Assembly: GCF_002000125.1 (NCBI RefSeq)
Contig: NZ_MLHH01000023.1
Location: 1 to 64,000 of the forward strand
DNA: 64,000 bases
Direction: 5' to 3'
Source: Rodentibacter heidelbergensis
Lineage (GTDB): Bacteria > Pseudomonadota > Gammaproteobacteria > Enterobacterales > Pasteurellaceae
Shown here piece by piece: positions 45,192 through 46,283 of this stretch. Under the pieces are notes generated by a model. The model did not search any database and was not told the DNA's origin. It was given only the letters and a program-made list of their open reading frames with translations. Every line of letters begins with the position of its first letter. Position 1 is the stretch's first letter. The position numbers and the translations under genes are program-made.

Positions 45192-46283
45192 ATGGAGAAC
45201 ATTACTTATAAGAAAAATATTTCTTTAGACTGCATGAAATTCCAATACGGTGGGGGAATGGAAAGATATGTTGTTGAGCTCGTCAATGGATTTCATCAAC
45301 GAGCAATTAAACCAACTATTTTTGCAACAAAATTTAACGAAGAGCTTGCTGAATATCAATTTATCAATCCTATAAAAGTTAATTTATCCTTTGTTCCTAA
45401 ACCGCTAAGAAATCTGTTTCTTTCTTATCTTTTTAATCGAAAAAAACAACAAAATAACCTTTCTATGACAACTGTTTACACGCTATCGGATATCGTTATT
45501 TGTGGGGGAAATCATTTAGGCTATCTTGAGGCAATGAGAAAAGACACAAGCAAGCAAGCAAGCAAGCAAGCAAGCCTAACTGATAAATTAAAAATTGCAA
45601 ATGAGCAAAAATCTCTTACAAATTCGAAACTTGTCATTGCGCATTCTAAAATGATGGCGAATGAGTTAGTAAAATATTACAACGTTGATAATAATAAAGT
45701 TTCTGTTATTTATCCTCCGGTCGATATTCATAAATTCACATTACCAGAAAGCAATAATAAAAGACAAACACTAAGAAGAAACTTTGGATTTAGCGATGAG
45801 GAGATCATCTATTTATTTCCTTCTACCGGGCATAGAAGAAAAGGATTTGATATCCTAAAACAATATTTTGAAAAATCAGATTTACCTATCAAACTCGTCG
45901 TTGCAGGTACCCCCGTAAAAGAAAGCAAGAATATTAAATCATTAGGCTATTGCAAGAATATGCAAGAATTATACCAGGCTGCTGATTATACTGTTATGGC
46001 ATCAATCTATGAGCCTTTTGGATTAGTGGGTATTGAATCAATTTTATCCGGCACACCCATCATATTTTCGGAGAATATGGGTTGTTTAGAAGTGTTAAAG
46101 AATGACTTTGGCTACACATTCTCTAGAGAAAATATCAACACCTTGGATCATGCTATCAACGAATCTTTTAAAAAAGCACAGGCTGCTGAGCACCGAATAG
46201 ACAATCCTTTTGATTGTATAAATTATGACCCAAGCCTACTTTCGCATATAGAAAAATTATTAGAAAATATCAGCCTGTTATAA
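45192..46283 (+). CDS. Phase-variable family 4 glycosyltransferase
   Basis: A 363-residue GT-B enzyme. GGGMERYVVELVNGF (about 20-34) forms the acceptor-side start, and the donor site holds FPSTGHRRKGFDIL and the E-x7-E motif in EPFGLVGIESILSGTPII (about 274-291). AAAGGAGTAAAA gives a strong start. Codons 119-132 are made of seven tetranucleotide repeats coding (SKQA)n in a loop of the N-terminal domain. As drawn the gene is ON; loss or gain of one repeat would end the protein at once, since both other frames read stop (TAA or TGA) within three codons after the repeat. Last gene of the cassette. Confidence 0.88.
   Translation: MENITYKKNISLDCMKFQYGGGMERYVVELVNGFHQRAIKPTIFATKFNEELAEYQFINPIKVNLSFVPKPLRNLFLSYLFNRKKQQNNLSMTTVYTLSDIVICGGNHLGYLEAMRKDTSKQASKQASLTDKLKIANEQKSLTNSKLVIAHSKMMANELVKYYNVDNNKVSVIYPPVDIHKFTLPESNNKRQTLRRNFGFSDEEIIYLFPSTGHRRKGFDILKQYFEKSDLPIKLVVAGTPVKESKNIKSLGYCKNMQELYQAADYTVMASIYEPFGLVGIESILSGTPIIFSENMGCLEVLKNDFGYTFSRENINTLDHAINESFKKAQAAEHRIDNPFDCINYDPSLLSHIEKLLENISLL
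45547..45574 (+). repeat. GCAA-class tetranucleotide repeat, seven copies
   Basis: CAAG repeated seven times without interruption (equivalent to GCAA/AAGC), inside the GT4 gene. The same repeat unit class controls lex2A and oafA in H. influenzae. Here it lies about 355 bases into the gene, where in H. influenzae such repeats are usually near the 5' end. In-frame copy numbers are 4, 7, 10 and so on. Confidence 0.95.

Follow-up and report, generated by a model that had tools for sequence, protein, structure and literature searches.

A GCAA tract within a GT4 glycosyltransferase gene of Rodentibacter heidelbergensis, a probable ON/OFF switch of the lipooligosaccharide outer core

Does a run of GCAA tetranucleotides in the middle of a glycosyltransferase gene of Rodentibacter heidelbergensis switch that gene ON and OFF? 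We considered this question for the window, by which we mean the whole 64-kb stretch of DNA that was analysed, in which the initial annotation had proposed such a switch. The features on which the answer depends are the following:

45192..46283, forward strand: GT4 (GT-B fold) glycosyltransferase gene, 363 aa, predicted from Pfam and AlphaFold2, with the EX7E motif past the tract
45547..45575, forward strand: GCAA tetranucleotide tract, perfect, codons 119-128
45577..45579, forward strand: TAA stop, used when the copy number n is 0 mod 3, six copies giving a 127-aa product
45581..45583, forward strand: TGA stop, used when n is 2 mod 3, eight copies giving a 131-aa product

Tandem Repeats Finder resolved the tract as 29 bp of (CAAG)7.25, read here as GCAA, with period 4 and 100% matches, confirming the seven perfect repeats first described. 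It begins 355 bases into the open reading frame, as had also been claimed, and encodes the peptide T-SKQA-SKQA-S; the codon range first given for it, 119-132, was too long. No other tetranucleotide array of at least three copies occurs in the window, and pattern searches found neither (GCAA)4 elsewhere in the 2.03-Mb genome nor four-copy runs of CAAT, AGTC or CCAA anywhere in it. The sequence GCAAGCAAGCAA, which is (GCAA)3, occurs four times in the window, each time within the GT4 tract, against an expectation of 0.02 per window from dinucleotide shuffles, none of which reached the observed count. The R. heidelbergensis tract was read from one assembly, and the comparisons below are with relatives in the genus and with other Pasteurellaceae.

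On both domain and structural evidence, the product of the gene is predicted to be a GT4 retaining glycosyltransferase of the GT-B fold. Pfam matches to Glyco_transf_4 (59.4 bits, cut-off 28.5) and Glycos_transf_1 (67.9 bits, cut-off 26.4) are well above threshold, an AlphaFold2 model built with 20 sequences has a pLDDT of 91 and a pTM of 0.89, and among solved structures it is most like MshA and the LPS glucosyltransferase WaaG. Both glutamates of the EX7E motif, E274 and E282, are invariant across 20 sequences. No NCBIfam equivalog reaches its cut-off. A phage origin was dropped, as the gene has no phage match, and so was an identity with the GT9-type DD-heptosyltransferase LosB/LbgB, the window protein belonging to GT4 by Pfam; the cluster of H. 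parasuis is listed with GT1, GT9 and GT25 members (PMC3096633), of which we took lbgB to be the GT9 from the order of the text. For lsgC (HI1698), a check of position only placed a Haemophilus-like homolog (L044) between a GT25 gene and ksgA, outside the lsg cluster.

The gene is the last of a low-GC cluster (25.6-33% GC, the window as a whole having 41.6%) made up of GT25, HtrL/YibB, Caps_synth and GT4 genes, and flanked by mutY-rpmE and DUF2322-rpoH:

42494..43294, forward strand: GT25-family (Glyco_transf_25) glycosyltransferase gene, first gene of the low-GC cluster
43308..44192, forward strand: HtrL/YibB-family gene, 25.6% GC
44186..45181, forward strand: Caps_synth-family (PF05704) putative glycosyltransferase gene, ending 11 bp upstream of the GT4 start
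46307..46621, forward strand: DUF2322 gene, starting 23 bp past the GT4 stop, with rpoH next at 46746

In Haemophilus-like genomes, a GT25 gene 61% identical to that of the window adjoins the GT4 homolog. From the gene families and these neighbours, the GT4 enzyme probably acts on the outer core of lipooligosaccharide (LOS). Polar effects of an OFF allele may reach DUF2322. At the other end of the window, an IS1595-family transposase gene (535-1572) adjoins the contig end.

We scripted a table of reading frames for 1 to 14 copies of the repeat. The frame is open at n = 1, 4, 7, 10 and 13, yielding proteins of 355, 359, 363, 367 and 371 aa, and the present assembly, at n = 7, is thus in frame and ON. 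All other copy numbers meet a stop at most four codons past the tract, leaving 123, 127, 131, 135 or 139 aa. The tract itself is read as SKQA in any of the three frames, and therefore the sequence after it alone sets whether the gene is open or stopped. The stops originally named for the two other frames, GCC-TAA and CCT-AAC-TGA, are correct, and a frameshift does end the protein as claimed, with the correction that there is no single end near residue 132: translation finishes after residue 127 at six copies and after residue 131 at eight. A tetranucleotide unit, not being a multiple of three, within a reading frame that has early stops in the other frames is one of the marks by which contingency genes are recognised. 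Since EX7E and the entire C-terminal domain follow the tract, the OFF product should be inactive.

We consider it very probable that the GT4 gene is a slipped-strand ON/OFF contingency gene for the LOS outer core. As the GCAA tract is replicated, strand slippage would add or remove 4-bp units; alleles with n = 1 mod 3 (1, 4, 7, 10) would make the full GT-B enzyme, and all others would make a partial N-terminal Rossmann domain lacking the NDP-sugar-binding domain, so that the enzyme would be lost. The outcome would be reversible and heritable ON/OFF expression of one LOS outer-core sugar. The interpretation first proposed is supported in part. For the ON/OFF switch speak the frame table and three comparative observations presented below (an assembly break within the tract of a sister species, a perfect tract despite silent divergence, and 21 homologs that lack the insert); slippage in cells, loss of activity on truncation and LOS as the target are inferred.

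The tract had also been placed in a loop that tolerates insertions, and the AlphaFold2 model supports this, residues ~118-128 forming a stretch of low pLDDT that joins the helix at 108-117 to that at 129-144. We found no tract in any of 21 other Pasteurellaceae homologs (44-65% identical), all of which are eight residues, equal to six units, shorter at this point, and a single copy would give the common loop length of these tract-free proteins. The GT4 homologs next to ksgA in Haemophilus-like genomes (L043-L046) are 63-64% identical to the window gene, with a GT25 gene immediately upstream in L044-L046, but lack the tract and the eight loop residues. Two loci (L051 and L054) considered as broken genes were rejected as such, their TAA lying upstream of the start codons.

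A repeat in such a loop could do more than open and close the frame, and its mid-gene position allows a clean test of the effect of repeat length on a working enzyme. Active forms that differ in loop length at 4, 7 or 10 copies had been suggested at first, and the arithmetic of the frame would permit them. There is a small chance that both effects operate, with out-of-frame alleles OFF and alleles of 1, 4, 7 or 10 copies varying the length and charge of a loop in the acceptor- or membrane-facing region, and with them efficiency or choice of acceptor; were this true, more than two heritable LOS states would arise from one tract. In WaaG, among the best structural matches, the membrane-interacting region comprises residues 103-132 and takes in the end of ADVCYA (PMC7558818). 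The tract seems to correspond to it in position, by a visual comparison of secondary-structure order rather than by residue alignment. A slim chance attaches to the further proposal that the tract chiefly alters the enzyme in steps of SKQA, each adding one positive charge, among in-frame alleles, rather than acting mainly as an ON/OFF control. The low-confidence loop between two helices and the match to WaaG would suit this, but the WaaG equivalence depends on that same comparison by eye, the homologs hold nearly one loop length, and two thirds of copy numbers truncate the protein, so that any tuning is superimposed on ON/OFF.

If the tract were instead a leftover in-frame expansion without meaningful slippage, the gene would encode a constitutive enzyme with a longer loop, and the tract having only seven copies, in frame in the assembly, would suit this. 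With seven copies, the tract is near the lower limit of published lengths, and the switching rate may therefore be low. However, tracts of 5-14 copies vary between strains in oafA of H. influenzae (PMC2651432), and two observations from within the genus further reduce this explanation to a slight chance. The GT4 gene is present in four of 15 genomes of the genus, without the tract in two of them (G012 and G013). In the nearest relative among them, the sister species G014 (MltC 99% and MutY 91% identical), it is split, residues 1-121 ending one contig (C121) and residues 123-361 ending another (C66), with both ends inside GCAA repeats. These are complementary halves of one gene with no second copy found, from which we infer that the two contigs are adjacent. 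Its tract has at least five copies, and the gene would be open there solely at n = 0 mod 3. By our estimate (~120 junctions, 2.6 Mb, a 40-bp target), the chance of a contig break falling at the tract is ~0.002; the break could reflect a long or mixed tract. G014 is a separate species, and its tract difference is one between species, not within one. Secondly, around the tract 46-51% of fourfold sites differ between the GT4 genes of R. heidelbergensis and G014, and 39% of shared residues have different codons, while the tract is perfect in both. An unbroken tract despite such strong silent divergence fits continued, repeated slippage, and comparative support for an ON/OFF switch in the GT4 gene is, as judged from these sequences, unusually good.

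The surroundings of the gene in G014 differ from those in the window. Only GT25 fragments lie upstream of GT4 on C121, and neither C121 nor C66 carries an HtrL or a Caps_synth gene. The tract-bearing GT4 gene is kept there (L070:8600-9135), with folD in place of rpoH as its downstream neighbour.

An artefact of sequencing or assembly, in which the recorded copy number is wrong or collapsed, is scarcely credible: the G014 assembly did fail to span its own tract, and contigs of the same R. heidelbergensis genome end in (GCAAC)n tracts, but 29 bp fits within any read length, at the recorded count the gene is intact and every conserved motif is present, and a wrong count would leave the tract itself standing.

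Several repeat-controlled genes of H. influenzae are comparable to the ON/OFF switch that we favour here. Tetranucleotide tracts in four genomes of that species lie at the 5' end of genes, except for a mid-gene GCAA tract in oafA and a GACA tract in the 3' part of pgt1, both of which may modulate function, as suggested by the authors of that study (PMC2651432). The oafA gene is closest in kind, sharing the GCAA unit, the mid-gene position, the SKQA peptide and, probably, a role in surface-sugar modification, but encodes a membrane LOS O-acetyltransferase with no domain in common with the GT-B glycosyltransferase of the window. We rejected an identity with oafA, as the window protein has neither an AT3 acyltransferase nor an SGNH domain by Pfam; an oafA-like gene with both Acyl_transf_3 and SGNH domains was identified in L028, with seven copies 666 bp into its reading frame, in frame. 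The lex2A/lex2B locus has in common with the GT4 gene the GCAA/CAAG class of unit and, probably, LOS biosynthesis, but its tract is at the 5' end (PMC2651432), and an identity with lex2A was rejected as well, the window tract lying 355 bp into a GT4 gene and not 5' and in frame upstream of a GT25 gene such as lex2B. The repeats of losA lie inside a glycosyltransferase gene cited as phase-variable (PMC6156194), but are octanucleotides, and pgt1 has its tract inside a putative glycosyltransferase and not at its start (PMC2651432), but with GACA units in the 3' part; both are likened to the GT4 gene by description and not by sequence.

The position of the tract within the gene had been put forward as unusual, which is less well supported: the oafA tract was already published, and scored as OFF at nine and ten copies and ON at 11 (PMC6479036). 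Mid-gene placement of GCAA is uncommon but not new. We found no earlier report in the literature of GCAA switching in the present GT4 gene, although the type of switch is ordinary and well known. Repeat-switched surface-sugar genes thereby gain a GT4 glycosyltransferase, probably of the LOS outer core.

Repeats of other types were identified in GT4 homologs of other genera. In G053, the homolog (L057:1501-1520) has a G11 tract over the conserved GGG-M/V-ERY motif, and since the open frame would need nine or twelve G, this gene is OFF in the assembly. A further gene of G053, GT2-like, has GCAA repeats at its 5' end (L019). In G059 (L056), a C10 tract lies at about +507 of the homolog. One GT4 family thus has a GCAA tract in the loop in one genus, a G11 tract at the GGG motif in a second and a C10 tract further down in a third. 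The sites differ and therefore point to independent origins, and the three repeat types suggest that variable expression of the enzyme has been selected repeatedly.

The R. heidelbergensis genome itself contains further repeat tracts, and the presence of (GCAAC)n at two methylase genes strengthens the ON/OFF reading of the GT4 gene. An N6-adenine methylase-like gene has (GCAAC)15 immediately after its ATG (G000:C21:5692-5766, minus strand, L091). The window's own contig begins in (GCAAC)n directly after an ATG (window 1-24, minus strand), and another contig begins with (GCAAC)n (G000:C32:1-50, L090) leading into a type III methyltransferase gene (N6_N4_Mtase and T3RM_EcoP15I_C), followed by a res-like gene. 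These two contig ends appear to flank the start of one type III methyltransferase gene, in which one frame of the leader closes at a TGA that overlaps the mod ATG; it looks like a phase-variable gene (a phasevarion) whose tract broke the assembly.

We additionally noted, in G002 of the same genus, many GCAAC copies at two regions. In R. heidelbergensis, a G11 tract (G000:C33:100342-100352; L075:1501-1511) precedes a coiled-coil, trimeric-autotransporter-like reading frame by ~130 bp, and is a possible promoter-spacing switch. GCAA was clearly mid-gene at two of 30 other GCAA loci inspected, namely the oafA-like gene and a type I specificity (HsdS) gene. In the latter, found in G016 (L013:900-2225), an in-frame (GCAA)18 joins the two halves of the gene, and may possibly switch DNA-target recognition.
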